In this document: positions 43,561 through 62,761 of the stretch, piece after piece
Layout: each line of letters opens with the position of its first letter
How positions within the stretch are numbered: the first letter of the stretch is position 1
Virus record (IMG/VR): IMGVR_UViG_3300015261_000001
Coordinates: 124,001-188,000 of that record
Reading direction: 5' to 3' (one strand)
Source of the DNA: a virus
Length of the DNA: 64,000 nucleotides
The notes under the pieces: generated by a model
Databases searched by the model: none
What the model was told of the DNA's origin: nothing
What the model saw: the letters and a program-made list of their open reading frames with translations, nothing else
Made by a program: the position numbers and the translations under genes

Positions 43561-46413
43561 ATGTTCGGTTTGTTTTCGGTTCAAGCCAAGCCTACTGGAG
43601 ACTATGTGCACATCACAGGAGTTTCCTATTACGATCTTGCAAAGGACATTGAAAAGTTTTACAGCAGTACGTTGGTTACCAAGCACCAGATCAAGCGCGA
43701 ATCATGGGACACCATCAAAGTCCACAACTTCTTTCTGGTAGAATTGCACAACATACTGGGAGAGCTGCTTAAGATACGGAACCTGCGTAGTCGGCGCCGC
43801 GCTCTGAGTGAACTGAAACAAGTCCTGGAAACAGACACTTGGATCAAAGACACGATTAACCCCAGCGGCACTCCGTTCAACATGAAACGTTTGGCACGGT
43901 TTGAAACTAAGCCGTTCCCTAAGCAACAAGAATTCTTAGAGCAGTATCCGGTGATTACCCACAGTTACCATTTACGAGGTCTGTTACTGGACTCCGTACC
44001 GGGCAGCGGTAAAGCCATGCCGCTCAGCACTAAGGTCAAAGTACCCAACGGGTGGAAACAATTACGCGACCTTAAGATGCACGACCCAGTCATAACCCCT
44101 GATGGGAAGGTGGCTAAAGTCGTTGGTATTCACCCCCAAGGAAAGACCGAAGTTTACCGCTTCTTCTTTGAAGATGGGCGTTACGCAGATTCTCACCCGG
44201 AACATCTCTGGGCAGTCGATGAAGTCAGTATCGTCGACGATCAAGAAATGGCCAGCGTTGGTAATGTCACTACCACCAAGGACATTATCCAGCACTTCGG
44301 TGAATTCGAATACCGTATTCCTCTGGTAGAGAAAGTCGGGGGATTCAATTACAGTGAAACGGGCACGCCTCGCCACATGGCGACTCATTTACTGGAATCT
44401 GGTATAGCGATAGATGACACAGTATTAGAACTTCCGTACTCCGAGCGCTTTGCGATTATCCGGGCTATGGTGGAGTTCTCTGCGTTGCACATCGGCGACC
44501 ATCATCTGTCCCTGATGCATGAGAACAAACAAGGTTGCGACAACTTCCGCCAGCTCATGTGGTCTCTGGGCGGTATTGCTCACGAACCGCTTAACGTCGG
44601 TGGCCTGTATAAGGTGATCTGTAAGCACCGGGACGTGGACCGTTTAATCGAAGACCTCGTGGGTAAGACTCCTGAAGTCAAGAAGATGTTCAATACCAAG
44701 CAGTACAAGGACCTTAAACTGCGCATTACCGGGTATGAGCATCGGGAAGCTGAGGAAACCCTGTGTATCTCGATTGACAGTGCAGACAAACTGTACATTG
44801 TTGATAACTACGTGGTCACTCACAACACCTTTACTTCGATTGCTTGGTCGGCGCTGGTTAACGACGCACCTACGGTGATCCTGTGTCCTCTGAACATCGT
44901 GGATGAAGTGTGGGTCAACCAACTGAACCACCACCACAAAGAAGCCCCGTTCATCTGGACCAGTAAATCGAATATCCCGTTACGTGAAGGGTTCGATTTC
45001 TACGTCGTGCATTACGACTACATGACCTCGGGTAACGCAGCCTACCTCCAAAAGTTCCTCGCAGACCTGCAAAAGAAACATAAGGGTGGCGTAAAGCTGA
45101 TTATTGACGAATGTCACAACTTCAACGACCCTAAAGCCGCGAGAACCAAACGACTCATCGAGTGGGCAGACCAGAAACTGTTCGGGCATTACCTGCCGGT
45201 GTCTGGAACCGCGTTAAAAGCCCTAGGGAGCGAGATCTACCCCGTACTGTGCCTCTTGGACCTGTTCTTCGACAGCAAGGCCAGAGAGTTCTTTATGGCG
45301 TCGTATGGACGCAACCGTCCTGCCCTGAACGAACTCCTTGCCCACCGTATCGGCAGGACCAAGTTTACCATCCCTGAATTAACCGGTATGGGTAATCCAC
45401 CCCCTATTGAGTTGGTCAGGGTGAAAATCCCTAACTCTGACAAATACACCCTCGACGTTATCCGCTTAGAGATGCAGACTTACATTACCGACCGTGTGAA
45501 GTTCTATGAATTTCATATGCCGAAGATGTTGGAGTTCTATAACGACTGTTTACTGTCGTATGAATATTCCATTGGTAAGAACCTGCAAGCTCAAGAAGAC
45601 TTCGTTAAGTATAAGCAGATCGTCCACCGTTTCCGTACCCAGGGTTATAACAGCTTTACTGACGTACAAGACGGGATGTTCTGTAAACGGGTAGAGGAAG
45701 AGATTGAAAAGGGTCTACGGGGTCCAGAGCTAAAGGAATTCCGCAATATCAAGTCTGCTGTGAAGTACCTTGGTTTGAAACTGCGTGGAGAGGCACTGGG
45801 TAACGTCCTAGGTCGTGCTCGTATCAATGCGATTAAAGACACCATTGCCTATGCTGATATTCCGGGAATGATCGATGATGCGGAGAAGAAGACCATTATC
45901 TTCACTTCGTATGTTGATGCTTTGAAACTCTGTGAAGAATACCTCACCAAAGAAGGCTACCCCGTGGTAACCGTCTACGGGGAGAACAGTAAGGATCGGG
46001 ATGACGCGATTAAGCGTTTAGCTAACGACCCTCGGGTTAAAGCAGGGATTGCCGTCTTTGATTCGCTTAAGGAAGGCTACCCACTCCTGATGTGTAATTT
46101 GACCATCCTCCTGAACAGCCCTTTCCGCGACTATGAGTTGAAACAAGTCATTGCACGTACGTGGCGTACTGGGCAAGATGCCGAGTGCTTCTACAAGCTG
46201 CTGGATTTGGACACCGGGGATAAGCTCAATATCACCACCCGGAGTATCAACATCATGGAGTGGTCTCGTGAGCAAGTTGATGCTTTACTGTCACGGGAAA
46301 GTGGTCACGCTCTACTGGGGAATATCTCGGGGCAAGAAATGTTCGATATGAGCATGGAAGCCTTTACCCTCCCTGTCCGTATTAACCAAAACGCAATGTC
46401 CCTCTTTCGATAA
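43561..46413 (+). CDS. SF2 (SNF2-like) helicase interrupted by an intein
   Basis: 950 residues encoded, 679 after removal of a 271-residue intein (152-422). Helicase motifs: Walker A PGSGK (147-151) continued after the intein by TFTS; Walker B DECH in LIIDECHNF; motif III PVSGTAL; motif V/VI region LLNSPFRDYELKQVIARTWRTGQ, similar to the SNF2 form R-x-HRIGQ. The protein would be an ATP-dependent DNA translocase or helicase in replication, repair or recombination, and splicing is required to rebuild its ATP site. AAGGA precedes the ATG. The inner-body-like gene follows 11 bp later. Confidence 0.85.
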   Translation: MFGLFSVQAKPTGDYVHITGVSYYDLAKDIEKFYSSTLVTKHQIKRESWDTIKVHNFFLVELHNILGELLKIRNLRSRRRALSELKQVLETDTWIKDTINPSGTPFNMKRLARFETKPFPKQQEFLEQYPVITHSYHLRGLLLDSVPGSGKAMPLSTKVKVPNGWKQLRDLKMHDPVITPDGKVAKVVGIHPQGKTEVYRFFFEDGRYADSHPEHLWAVDEVSIVDDQEMASVGNVTTTKDIIQHFGEFEYRIPLVEKVGGFNYSETGTPRHMATHLLESGIAIDDTVLELPYSERFAIIRAMVEFSALHIGDHHLSLMHENKQGCDNFRQLMWSLGGIAHEPLNVGGLYKVICKHRDVDRLIEDLVGKTPEVKKMFNTKQYKDLKLRITGYEHREAEETLCISIDSADKLYIVDNYVVTHNTFTSIAWSALVNDAPTVILCPLNIVDEVWVNQLNHHHKEAPFIWTSKSNIPLREGFDFYVVHYDYMTSGNAAYLQKFLADLQKKHKGGVKLIIDECHNFNDPKAARTKRLIEWADQKLFGHYLPVSGTALKALGSEIYPVLCLLDLFFDSKAREFFMASYGRNRPALNELLAHRIGRTKFTIPELTGMGNPPPIELVRVKIPNSDKYTLDVIRLEMQTYITDRVKFYEFHMPKMLEFYNDCLLSYEYSIGKNLQAQEDFVKYKQIVHRFRTQGYNSFTDVQDGMFCKRVEEEIEKGLRGPELKEFRNIKSAVKYLGLKLRGEALGNVLGRARINAIKDTIAYADIPGMIDDAEKKTIIFTSYVDALKLCEEYLTKEGYPVVTVYGENSKDRDDAIKRLANDPRVKAGIAVFDSLKEGYPLLMCNLTILLNSPFRDYELKQVIARTWRTGQDAECFYKLLDLDTGDKLNITTRSINIMEWSREQVDALLSRESGHALLGNISGQEMFDMSMEAFTLPVRINQNAMSLFR
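44014..44826 (+). mobile_element. Class 3 intein (Ala1, WCT triplet) in the helicase P-loop
   Basis: 271 residues. It begins at Ala152 (AMPLSTKVKVPNGW, typical intein block A apart from Ala at position 1) and ends VVTHN at 418-422, followed by Thr as the +1 residue. The class 3 marks are present: His215-Leu-Trp217 in block B, Cys402 in block F (LCISIDSADKLYIVDN), and Thr420 before His421-Asn422. Class 3 inteins lack an N-terminal nucleophile and use the block F Cys. The middle (about 285-370) looks like a worn LAGLIDADG endonuclease without its acidic catalytic motif, so homing is probably lost. Confidence 0.85.
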
Positions 46414-58361: not shown

Positions 58362-58943
58362 ATGGCCTTTCCAAATGATCAATTGTTCTTGGATCGGTTC
58401 ATCGCTTTCAACAAAAGGCGGTACGTCGATGAACCAGCATTCGTAAGTAAACTCAACTCCCTCACGCTCGACACTATCCAGTTTTCCAACTTCCGCAAGG
58501 TAGAGATCGAACCTGGGGTTGTGGCTCACCTCGTCGACGTTGACTCGGCCGGCATCCTCACAGGGGATGGGCAGCAGTACCTCCCTGCGGACTATGTCAA
58601 GAACGGTCCAGCAGAACTGGAAGAACCTGATCCCGTTGCCATGGATGCGCTTGAACGTAAAGGGGTACAGGGGATCTTCTTCCTCGGTGTAAGTCCTGAG
58701 GACACCGTGGGTGCGGTGCTTGTCTACAACGGCAAGAAAACACCAGAGAACATCAAAGCCATTGTCATGGAGAAGTGCTACTTCGAACTGACGGACGCGG
58801 ACATTACCATCGATGAGGACCTGACACTGGTCACCATTGACTCGCGCACTATTGGCGGTGTCCTTCAAGTAGTCGAAGGTCTCTACGACGACATCCCTCG
58901 TTATAACGGACAGTTCCGTTACGACGGCACCATTAGTTACTAA
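58362..58943 (+). CDS. Tail/fibre-associated structural protein (putative)
   Basis: 193 residues, beta-rich and acidic, no signal peptide, weak RBS (GCGGATAA). It is the first gene of the plus-strand fibre block and lies 17 bp before the large fibre gene. The spread of short strands and absence of enzyme motifs suit a baseplate or fibre connector. Not recognised. Confidence 0.5.
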   Translation: MAFPNDQLFLDRFIAFNKRRYVDEPAFVSKLNSLTLDTIQFSNFRKVEIEPGVVAHLVDVDSAGILTGDGQQYLPADYVKNGPAELEEPDPVAMDALERKGVQGIFFLGVSPEDTVGAVLVYNGKKTPENIKAIVMEKCYFELTDADITIDEDLTLVTIDSRTIGGVLQVVEGLYDDIPRYNGQFRYDGTISY

Positions 58944-58960
58944 GCCAGAGGAATTTGTAT

Positions 58961-61900
58961 ATGGCTCTCGATGACGATAGCGTAACACCCGGCGAGTTGC
59001 CGGCGATTGTAGAAGAAGCCGTATGGGAAGAACACCTTCCCGCGGTCGTCACTGGCGTTAAAGTCCGTGGCGGCGATGACGGCAAAGGTGCTGCTAACTT
59101 CCAGGCTCGAGTGTTGGACGCTCGTACCCGTTACCTGAAGGAAGCATTCCAGGCACTGGTGGTTGGTGGTCTGAACGTAATCGGTACGCTTAACAGCCAA
59201 GCCGAGTTGGACGCCATCCCAACCGAAGACCTGAACAAAGGTGATGCGTACTTTGTTGAAGGCTCTTTGTGTGTCTGGAACCTGACTGAATGGGTGAACT
59301 CTGGTTCCCTGCTCGGTCCACGCGGCATCACCCTGCTCGGCACTTGGCCTGACAACCAAGCACTGCCGGACCACACTCTGAACGAGGTAGGTGACGCCTA
59401 CATCTGGAAGAATGACATCTGGCTGCTCATTCCTCAGCCTGATGGCTGGGTGACGATTGGTTTGAAGGGTGATGCCGGTAAAGATGCTTACCAGATTGCT
59501 GTCGATGCTGGCTTCCAAGGTACTCGTCCGCAATGGCTCGCTAGCTTGGTAGGCAAAAGCACCTACCAAATCTGGTTGGACCAAGGCAACGAAGGTACCG
59601 AAGCCGACTTCCTGCTCAGCCTGAAAGGCGCTGCTGGTAGTGTTGGTTCGGTAAAGGTTCTCGGCACACTGAACAGTCAAGCTGAACTCGACGCTATCCC
59701 TACCGAGGGTCTGGCGGAAGGTACTGCTTACTTCGTCACGGGTTCCCTGCGCGTATGGAACGGTGTTGACTGGTCTGACTCCGGTTCTCTGTTGGGTGAC
59801 CGCGGTGTGACATTGCTGGGCACCTGGCCTGATGCGCAAGCACTGCCACCAGTCAATGCTGTTTCTGTTGGTGACGCTTACATCTGGAAAAACGACCTGT
59901 GGTTGTTGGTGCCAGGTGGCGACGGTAGCGACCCTGAGGCAGATCCTGTCTGGAGTTCTATCGGTCTGGAAGGTCCTGAAGGTAAGTCGGCGTATCAGGT
60001 ATGGCTGGATAACGGTCACGTTGGTACTCAGCCCCAGTTCCTGCAAAGCCTGGTCGGTAAGTCTTCTTACCAAACCTGGTTGGATCAGGGTAACACCGGT
60101 AATGAACAAGCGTTCCTCGATACGCTGAAGTCGACTACCAAAGGCGATCCAGGTCCTGAAGGTCCTGCTCGTTCTCCTTTCGAGGTGAAGGGTGCCAAGG
60201 CTGATGAGTCGCTGCTGCCTACTCCGGGTACTGCAACTGAAGCCTGGTACGTTGGTAGCCACCTGTACGTGTGGGTAACCGACCAAGCCCAATACGTGGA
60301 CCTCGGTTCGGTTGGTGGTCTGTCGGCCTACGACCTCGCAGTAGAAGACGGCTTCGGCGGTACGCTGCAACAGTGGCTTGTTTCGTTGAAGTCGACTGTG
60401 CCAGGTCCTGAGGGTCCGAAAGGTCAGAACTTGACCGTTAAAGGCACCGTGGCCAACGCTCCTCAACTGGGCAATATCCAAAACCCAGAAGAGCAAGATG
60501 GTTACGTTACTGCTGACGACGGCCACCTGCACATCCTTACCGAAGGCATTTGGGTGGATGTGGGTCCATTCCGTGGTCAGTCGACTTACCAGCTCTGGCT
60601 GGATAACGGCCACAGTGGTTCCGAGAACGAGTTCCTGGCTTCGCTGAAAGGGACTAACGGTACTAACGGCACCAACATCGTCATCAAGGGTTCGGTCTCC
60701 ACCTATGGATCCCTGCCGGCTTCTCCTGAAGAACAGGACGTCTACGCCGTTCGTGACACCAACACTCTGTACGCGCGCATCAATGCTGCCTGGGTAAACC
60801 TCGGTCAATTCCGTGGTGAAGACGGTAACGATGGTGCTCCGGGTGCCAACGGTTCTTCGATCACAATCATCAAGATCCTGACTGCCGAAGATGCTGATGT
60901 TCCCAACCCGGTAACCAACGGCGGTAAAGCCTACGTTGACCTGGACAAGCATCTCCAGATCTCTCTGGGTGGCGTGTGGGTCGATTGCGGTCCGGTTGGT
61001 GCTCCTGGTGAGCGCGGTATCCAAGGTATCGGTCTGAAGCTGCGTGGTACCGTTCCAGGTCCTACGTATCTGCCTCTCCCGGCAAATTCTGAAGAAGGCG
61101 ACGGTTGGTTCACTTCCAACGACAAGATGCTGTATGTCTTGACCGACGGCGAGTGGGATGGTCCGTACGACATCACCGGTCTTCCTGGTCCTCAGGGTAA
61201 CGATGGCGAGAAGGGTGAAGCCGGTACCTCGATCAACATCTTGGGCGCATACCCTACGCTGGCCGCGCTGGAAACCGCTGTTCCTACCGGTTCGCTGGGT
61301 GACGGCTATCTGGTTGGTGACAACCTGGCCATCTGGACTACCGCTAACGGCGGTGAGTGGATCGACATCGGTCTGGTTCGTGGCCCTCAGGGTATCCAGG
61401 GTGTTCCTGGTCCTATCGGCATCGGCAAGAAAGGTGACAAGGGTGAGAAAGGTTCGTCCTGGATCACTCTGCCTGCTGGTGTTGATGCCCCAAGCGCAGG
61501 TTTCACCGGTAACATTGGTGACTGGGCCGTATCCGACAGCTTCAAGGTTTACTACAAGTCGGCTTTGTCGGGCTGGGTATATTGGGGTCAACTGGTTGCG
61601 GGTGATGTTAACTCGCCACAGCTGTCCGCTGGTAAAGTGGTCCGTCTCGGTAACGAGTGGGTAATGCTGCCTGTTGACGAAGCTCCTGCCATGATTGCTG
61701 GCAAGCTGTATGTCCGTCAGTTGATCGAAGGTAGCGAAACCAACGAAGGTGAGTGGGTAGAACTGGAGTTCCCTCCTCAGTTCGACGAACCACCGGCTGA
61801 CAGCCAGCCGTACATGCGTGTGCGTCTCAACGGTCAGGAGGTCGGTTCCTGGGGTGCTTACAACGCTCCTACGATCGGTAGCTTGGGTGGTGTTCCACTG

Positions 61901-62761
61901 ACAGCTCTGGGTGTTACGGTAGCGACGCTTGTCAACGGTACTGTTCCAGCGGGTCAACTGCCGAGCTATGTCGATGATGTGTTGGAGTTCGCTAACCAAG
62001 CGGCCTTCCCTGCTACTGGTGAAACCGGGAAGATCTACATCTCCTTGGCCACCAACGCCCAGTTCCGCTGGACAGGTAGTGTGTACATCGGCCTGGTAGC
62101 TTCTCCGGGAACTACTGACGCTGTGCCAGAGGGTGCAACTAACCTCTACTACACGCCGGCGCGAGTGCGGTCTACTCCGTTGGCAGGTGTCAGCTTCGGT
62201 ACTGGTGGGGTTATCACAGCAGCCGACACGGTACTTACCGCGTTCGGTAAACTTCAGGCGCAGATCACTGCATTCGTACCTGGTTTCGCTGACGTTCCGA
62301 CGGATACCAACCTGTATCTGCGTAAGGGTGACAAGACGTGGGTGGTTTACACTGCACCTACTCCTGGTATCTCTGGCCCGGCTGGCGGTGCGGACAACAA
62401 GACGTACGTCTACAAAAACAACGCGTGGATCGAGTTCAACCGTTATGACTTGCCTATCAAGTCTATTTCGGCGACGGCCACCATCGATGCTTCTGTGGAT
62501 CAGTTCGTCCTCATCAACAACACCGGCGCTACTGCCAAAACCATTACCCTGAGCGATGGTCCGAAAGCTCCTGCCCGTGCAATGATCGTCGTAGTGAAGA
62601 TCAATGGCGCGGCGGGTGTTATCACGTTCGCTCCTACCGGTGCTACGGTGCTCGTGTGGGGCGGCGGTTCGCCACCTTCTCTGACGGGTAGCCGGACACA
62701 GATCACCTTCACCTGGGATGGTGTTGAGTGGACTGGCGCACCTGGTGCTGTGGTTCCTTAA
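58961..62761 (+). CDS. Tail fibre with collagen-like and duplicated modules
   Basis: 1266 residues from the ATG at 58961 (GAGG 10 nt upstream). An N-terminal anchor (~1-60) leads to two copies of an ~85-residue module starting GTLNSQAELDAIPTE (about 70 and 232), interleaved with repeats of the form YQ-WLD-G--GT--FL-SL. Gly-X-Y stretches occur repeatedly (GDPGPEGP, GLPGPQGNDGEKGE, GPQGIQGVPGPIG), giving trimeric collagen-like shafts. The C-terminal ~100 residues (from about ATIDASVDQFVLINN) resemble a common fibre tip domain. It probably binds the host surface. Confidence 0.88.
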   Translation: MALDDDSVTPGELPAIVEEAVWEEHLPAVVTGVKVRGGDDGKGAANFQARVLDARTRYLKEAFQALVVGGLNVIGTLNSQAELDAIPTEDLNKGDAYFVEGSLCVWNLTEWVNSGSLLGPRGITLLGTWPDNQALPDHTLNEVGDAYIWKNDIWLLIPQPDGWVTIGLKGDAGKDAYQIAVDAGFQGTRPQWLASLVGKSTYQIWLDQGNEGTEADFLLSLKGAAGSVGSVKVLGTLNSQAELDAIPTEGLAEGTAYFVTGSLRVWNGVDWSDSGSLLGDRGVTLLGTWPDAQALPPVNAVSVGDAYIWKNDLWLLVPGGDGSDPEADPVWSSIGLEGPEGKSAYQVWLDNGHVGTQPQFLQSLVGKSSYQTWLDQGNTGNEQAFLDTLKSTTKGDPGPEGPARSPFEVKGAKADESLLPTPGTATEAWYVGSHLYVWVTDQAQYVDLGSVGGLSAYDLAVEDGFGGTLQQWLVSLKSTVPGPEGPKGQNLTVKGTVANAPQLGNIQNPEEQDGYVTADDGHLHILTEGIWVDVGPFRGQSTYQLWLDNGHSGSENEFLASLKGTNGTNGTNIVIKGSVSTYGSLPASPEEQDVYAVRDTNTLYARINAAWVNLGQFRGEDGNDGAPGANGSSITIIKILTAEDADVPNPVTNGGKAYVDLDKHLQISLGGVWVDCGPVGAPGERGIQGIGLKLRGTVPGPTYLPLPANSEEGDGWFTSNDKMLYVLTDGEWDGPYDITGLPGPQGNDGEKGEAGTSINILGAYPTLAALETAVPTGSLGDGYLVGDNLAIWTTANGGEWIDIGLVRGPQGIQGVPGPIGIGKKGDKGEKGSSWITLPAGVDAPSAGFTGNIGDWAVSDSFKVYYKSALSGWVYWGQLVAGDVNSPQLSAGKVVRLGNEWVMLPVDEAPAMIAGKLYVRQLIEGSETNEGEWVELEFPPQFDEPPADSQPYMRVRLNGQEVGSWGAYNAPTIGSLGGVPLTALGVTVATLVNGTVPAGQLPSYVDDVLEFANQAAFPATGETGKIYISLATNAQFRWTGSVYIGLVASPGTTDAVPEGATNLYYTPARVRSTPLAGVSFGTGGVITAADTVLTAFGKLQAQITAFVPGFADVPTDTNLYLRKGDKTWVVYTAPTPGISGPAGGADNKTYVYKNNAWIEFNRYDLPIKSISATATIDASVDQFVLINNTGATAKTITLSDGPKAPARAMIVVVKINGAAGVITFAPTGATVLVWGGGSPPSLTGSRTQITFTWDGVEWTGAPGAVVP

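Follow-up and report, generated by a model that had tools for sequence, protein, structure and literature searches.

The window analysed here is a stretch of 64,000 nucleotides (positions 124,001 to 188,000) of the IMG/VR virus record IMGVR_UViG_3300015261_000001, itself 238,193 bases long; a megablast search with 24 kb of the window against phage records returned no near phage record. On the forward strand, positions 43561-46413 encode a protein of 950 amino acids without internal stop. This protein is a Snf2-type SF2 helicase: residues 4-935 match the DNA helicase family phrog_62 (E = 1.5e-110), the domain PF00271 (Helicase_C) is detected in the complete ORF (E = 1.2e-8) and in its C-terminal part alone (E = 3.3e-9), and ORF166 of Pseudomonas phage EL is 65% identical to it over the full length. 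By these domain and family matches, it belongs with the Snf2-type SF2 helicases of the phiKZ/EL group of jumbo phages.

The helicase is split by an insert located exactly between the lysine and the threonine of its Walker A motif. The N-extein (43561-44013), recognized from the phrog_62 match and the homolog alignment, ends with LLLDSVPGSGK, whose last residue is the Walker A Lys151. The insert (codons 152-422, 44014-44826, first letters AMPLSTKVKVPNGWK, last letters LYIVDNYVVTHN) then adds 271 residues, or 28% of the ORF. The C-extein (44827-46413) opens on the Walker A threonine, Thr423 (Thr+1, 44827-44829), and carries the DECH Walker B motif as well as the Helicase_C domain. The first-pass annotation had described a class 3 (WCT) intein whose excision would rebuild GSGK/TFTS. 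Indeed, computed removal of residues 152-422 yields an exact K/T junction, LLLDSVPGSGK/TFTSIAWS, and a product of 679 amino acids, and the residues that had been singled out (Ala152, Trp217, Cys402, Thr420, His421, Asn422 and Thr423) are all found at the positions named.

Comparison with homologous helicases indicates that this position is not fortuitous, as 10 further aligned homologs display an insert of 227-358 amino acids at exactly the same K/T bond. Before removal of duplicates, same-site carriers amounted to 29 sequences including the window, plus the contig L048; they comprise phages EL, PDCC-1, 2 TSL-2019, phiKT1019, FishSpeaker and CF8, together with approximately 20 contigs. This sampling relies on deposited phages and IMG/VR contigs, in which close copies are not independent. 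Uninterrupted helicases aligning on both sides of the site, with GSGKT or a similar motif, were retrieved from RisingSun (52% identical to the window helicase), OBP, pTD1, Aphrodite1 and many IMG/VR contigs. The comparison with intein-free homologs that had been proposed as a check thus came out in favour of an intein, since the P-loop is intact in these proteins and the segment is missing altogether. One such pair is formed by L048 and L050, whose exteins are 95% identical: the former carries an intein after GGGK, where the latter reads GGGKT. When the intein protein alone was used as query in a protein-only scan of viral contigs, no match was obtained; scans with the whole ORF and with the alignment did return intein-bearing homologs.

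The residues of the insert are those described for class 3 inteins (PMC5222942; PMC5050341; PMC7664689). Position 1 is occupied by an alanine rather than by the cysteine, serine or threonine that would serve as nucleophile in a class 1 intein, and alanine is found there in 24 of the 25 aligned same-site inteins (glutamate in the remaining one). The latter, from contig L055, retains all other class 3 residues. Block B (DGRYADSHPEHLWA, 44173-44214) includes His64 (B:10, 44203-44205) and the signature Trp66 (B:12, 44209-44211), and blocks F and G (44755-44826) include Cys251 (F:4, 44764-44766), Thr269 (G:5, 44818-44820) and the terminal His270-Asn271. These six residues, among which Trp66, Cys251 and Thr269 form the class 3 triplet, are invariant in 25/25 inteins; the +1 residue is a threonine in 24 of them and a serine in one. 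The structure of the Mch DnaB1 intein shows a Cys-His-Thr working triad, with the tryptophan two residues past the histidine (PMC7664689), a spacing identical to that of His64 and Trp66 here. The B:7 position, where a histidine stands in for the canonical threonine, is variable in the relatives too.

Among solved structures, a phmmer search with the insert retrieved class 3 DnaB inteins, with E = 2.7e-4 for 6bs8 of M. smegmatis, as well as the gp41-1 intein (E = 1.3e-6). The intein profile search that had been suggested as a check gave no hit: the Pfam profile Intein_splicing (PF14890) matches nothing anywhere in the genome, the intein lying below the detection limit of this profile, and in standard annotation it would go unnoticed. 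The AlphaFold model of the intein alone (pLDDT 90, pTM 0.88) adopts a HINT fold, as judged on a prediction and not on a solved structure. It superimposes on 6bs8 over 123 residues (Z = 19.1, 1.6 Å) and on the intein-endonuclease PI-SceI over 263 residues, in full-length comparison (Z = 20.6), which shows that the predicted structure has an endonuclease-like part in addition to the HINT part. The full-length precursor is modelled poorly around the junctions (pLDDT under 50 for residues 149-156 and 409-420), and geometry derived from it was set aside on that account.

The endonuclease-like part corresponds to a single LAGLIDADG half-domain (44368-44682), delimited from the predicted model and the alignment. 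The first LAGLIDADG repeat is missing from this intein and from all EL-like inteins. In the second, whose motif helix lies at 44437-44478, the catalytic aspartate is replaced by Ser156 (44479-44481); this aspartate is kept in 8/8 homing endonuclease (HEN)-positive inteins and in 0/14 EL-like ones, 11 of which have a serine. No Pfam LAGLIDADG domain is detected in the window intein; PF14528 matches the two HEN-positive inteins tried against it (E = 2.7e-9). As the first repeat is absent and the aspartate of the second is lost, the nuclease is almost certainly dead, judging by its residues, and the earlier remark that the endonuclease part looked worn was well founded. The rest of the half-domain is still predicted to fold as helix-strand-strand-helix-strand-strand. 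In five close pairs of relatives, its dN/dS is 0.02-0.11 (upper confidence bounds of at most about 0.20), near the values obtained for the exteins (0.03-0.10); exact figures are rough, since dS approaches or exceeds 1 for the majority of pairs. The relic is under purifying selection, and is neither simply decaying nor drifting freely. It is also the part that changes fastest: within the EL-like group, mean identity falls from 67% in the exteins and 63% in the splicing parts to 43% in the relic.

The distribution of intein forms across the helicases reveals two different patterns:

— In the EL-like group, the HEN-dead form is present in 14/14 helicases, which compose one supported clade of the helicase tree. 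Identities of inteins and exteins are correlated (Mantel r = 0.93, p = 1e-4), the intein is more diverged than the extein in 90 of 91 pairs, and groups of the intein tree match those of the extein tree, several inner branches being weak. The presence of this form in every EL-like helicase and its agreement with the helicase phylogeny point to a fixed, vertically inherited element; on this comparative sequence evidence, the window intein no longer homes and is passed on with its gene.

— HEN-positive inteins (FishSpeaker L020, CF8 L025, L039, L040, L042, L043, L048 and L055) are 342-358 amino acids long and combine the same class 3 signature with two LAGLIDADG motifs (GVLLGDGSLSG and QGLLDTDGTSG in FishSpeaker). 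Their carriers are sporadic and scattered among intein-free helicases, and in 19 of the 21 pairs formed by seven of these inteins, similarity is higher for the intein than for the extein, as expected of mobile inteins. The helicase tree scored L048 as intein-free from its GGGK P-loop; it is one more sporadic carrier, and the EL-like clade is unaffected.

A mixed Vibrio group further harbours shorter HEN-dead inteins of 227-228 amino acids. The branch that bears on a single HEN loss shared by these and the EL-like inteins has a support of 80/57. The description of the window element as a fixed mini-intein holds for its fixation, but a bare mini-intein it is not, as one constrained half-domain is kept.

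Such constraint on a dead nuclease raises the question of a domesticated intein acting as a regulatory switch, with splicing conditional on redox state, timing or location and the half-endonuclease fold assisting, for example by binding DNA or setting the splicing rate. We regard this as possible but unlikely. The intein is kept by every sampled member of the EL-like clade, and the relic is conserved at the protein level although nuclease residues are lost in 14/14 inteins of that clade; moreover, H2O2 inhibits M. smegmatis DnaBi1, itself of class 3 and lodged in a P-loop, by acting on the block F cysteine (PMC6195587), and by analogy conditional splicing is conceivable here. However, the constraint may merely reflect the need to fold without obstructing splicing, no part of the intein evolves faster than the relic, and the second cysteine that a disulfide would require is not conserved. 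A Cys158 (window numbering) located beside the dead LAGLIDADG helix in 10 of 14 EL-like inteins could be a partner for the catalytic cysteine; the window has a leucine at this position, and a redox-switch cysteine pair was set aside for it. Slightly less probable is a co-option of the half-endonuclease for setting when or where a helicase that is injected or imported into the nucleus is spliced, which, if true, would confine ATPase activity to the appropriate stage of infection. In group 1 jumbo phages, this type of Swi2/Snf2 helicase has been linked to the phage RNA polymerases, perhaps as an analogue of RapA (PMC7824862). As the OBP copy is annotated as virion-associated and phiKZ virions package a predicted helicase (PMC13282480), splicing would need to occur before the helicase is packaged or acts.

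It is very improbable that the insert stays in the protein for good, as an intein that has died or as an ordinary subdomain of the helicase. The miss by the standard Pfam intein profile speaks for this reading, but the catalytic residues do not vary even though the relic does, homologs with an intact site have no such segment at all, and the insert parts the Walker A lysine from its threonine in a protein whose exteins are strongly constrained. Likewise very improbable is a class 2 intein, in which the +1 residue would attack directly and Cys251 would be unused: in sequence terms, either class could have Ala1 with a nucleophile at +1, but the full Trp-Cys-Thr triplet is invariant across the aligned inteins, the solved structures nearest in sequence are those of the gp41-1 intein and of class 3 DnaB inteins, and class 2 inteins had been known from KlbA only (PMC3196547).

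Taken together, homolog comparison and predicted fold bear out the class 3 assignment of the first-pass annotation, and the insert is very probably a class 3 intein that interrupts the Walker A motif of the Snf2-type helicase encoded by an EL-like jumbo phage. As read from its residues, splicing would proceed as follows. The precursor would fold with the HINT domain between Lys151 and Thr423 and be unable to bind Mg-ATP productively, since the Mg-binding threonine lies 271 residues from the lysine and no working Walker A exists. Cys251, within a Cys-His64-Thr269 triad against which Trp66 would pack, would attack the Lys151-Ala152 bond; the acyl group would then move to Thr+1, and cyclization of Asn271 would release the 679-residue helicase with an intact GSGKT loop. 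With its homing endonuclease reduced to a single LAGLIDADG half-domain devoid of catalysis, the intein would persist because a deletion in the P-loop has to be exact to the codon if the helicase is to work, and possibly also because the remnant contributes to folding or splicing. The earlier proposal that the intein gates helicase ATPase activity follows from this anatomy in no more than a weak sense: as for any P-loop intein, a precursor that has not spliced should be inactive. ATPase regulation proper is hypothetical.

The nearest known system is ORF166 of phage EL (AJ697969), which shares with the window the gene, the K/T site, the class 3 residues and the HEN-dead half-domain. Its intein, of 262 amino acids, is 47-48% identical to that of the window and its extein 72% identical, the differences consisting only of sequence divergence and small indels. 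ORF166 is annotated just as a helicase in AJ697969 and as ‘DarB-like antirestriction’ in NC_007623, and the annotations seen for these helicases miss the insert. In NC_007623 and other RefSeq phages, several intein-bearing helicases and terminases have been given this ‘DarB-like antirestriction’ name, possibly through the intein they share. No mention of the EL helicase intein was found in the open-access literature searched. The Mycobacterium DnaB-1 inteins (Msm DnaBi1 and Mch DnaB1; 6bs8 and 6rix) likewise combine a WCT mechanism and a helicase P-loop with the lack of an active HEN (PMC6195587, PMC7664689). They differ by their replicative DnaB host, a serine at +1, a HEN reduced to an unresolved linker where the window retains a half-domain, and a redox cysteine pair that is not conserved in the window intein. 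According to Brace et al. 2010, cited in PMC5222942 and PMC3196547, the class 3 intein of Deinococcus radiodurans Snf2 splices; it resembles ours by its class and Snf2-family host protein, and differs by residing in a bacterium instead of a phage.

Inteins of class 3 type are thus already known, and the window provides a further instance. Its interest lies in the constrained dead half-endonuclease and in the natural series formed at one site of one phage helicase family, in which empty, mobile HEN-positive, fixed HEN-dead and shortened states coexist. This series offers a good test of why inteins outlast the loss of homing and of whether P-loop inteins turn into regulators.

A second class 3-type intein is present in the same genome, outside the window (G000:C1:114964-115908, equivalent to L029:2465-3409, reverse strand). 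It spans 315 amino acids of the terminase large subunit, again between the P-loop lysine and threonine (PRQQGK/T), with Leu1, EHLW, CTCIEV and THN/T, and was retrieved from 12/12 EL-like genomes searched as well as from RisingSun and FishSpeaker. Its LAGLIDADG motifs look degraded or altered. Two P-loop inteins with altered LAGLIDADG motifs in one phage agree with the preference for ATPase P-loops already described for class 3 inteins of phages (PMC5050341). In phage EL, a HEN-positive class 3-type intein with intact LLGDGC and LLDTDGT motifs was observed at L087:24-2819 (about 45.0-47.8 kb), in a host protein that resembles a beta-prime subunit of RNA polymerase, along with an intein-like stretch near 48.3-49.1 kb; no match to either was seen in the phage of the window. 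Finally, the window holds long open frames overlapping on both strands, at 58955-62761 (forward) and 58940-61999 (reverse), the former matching tail fibre families (phrog_3904, E = 4.6e-173).
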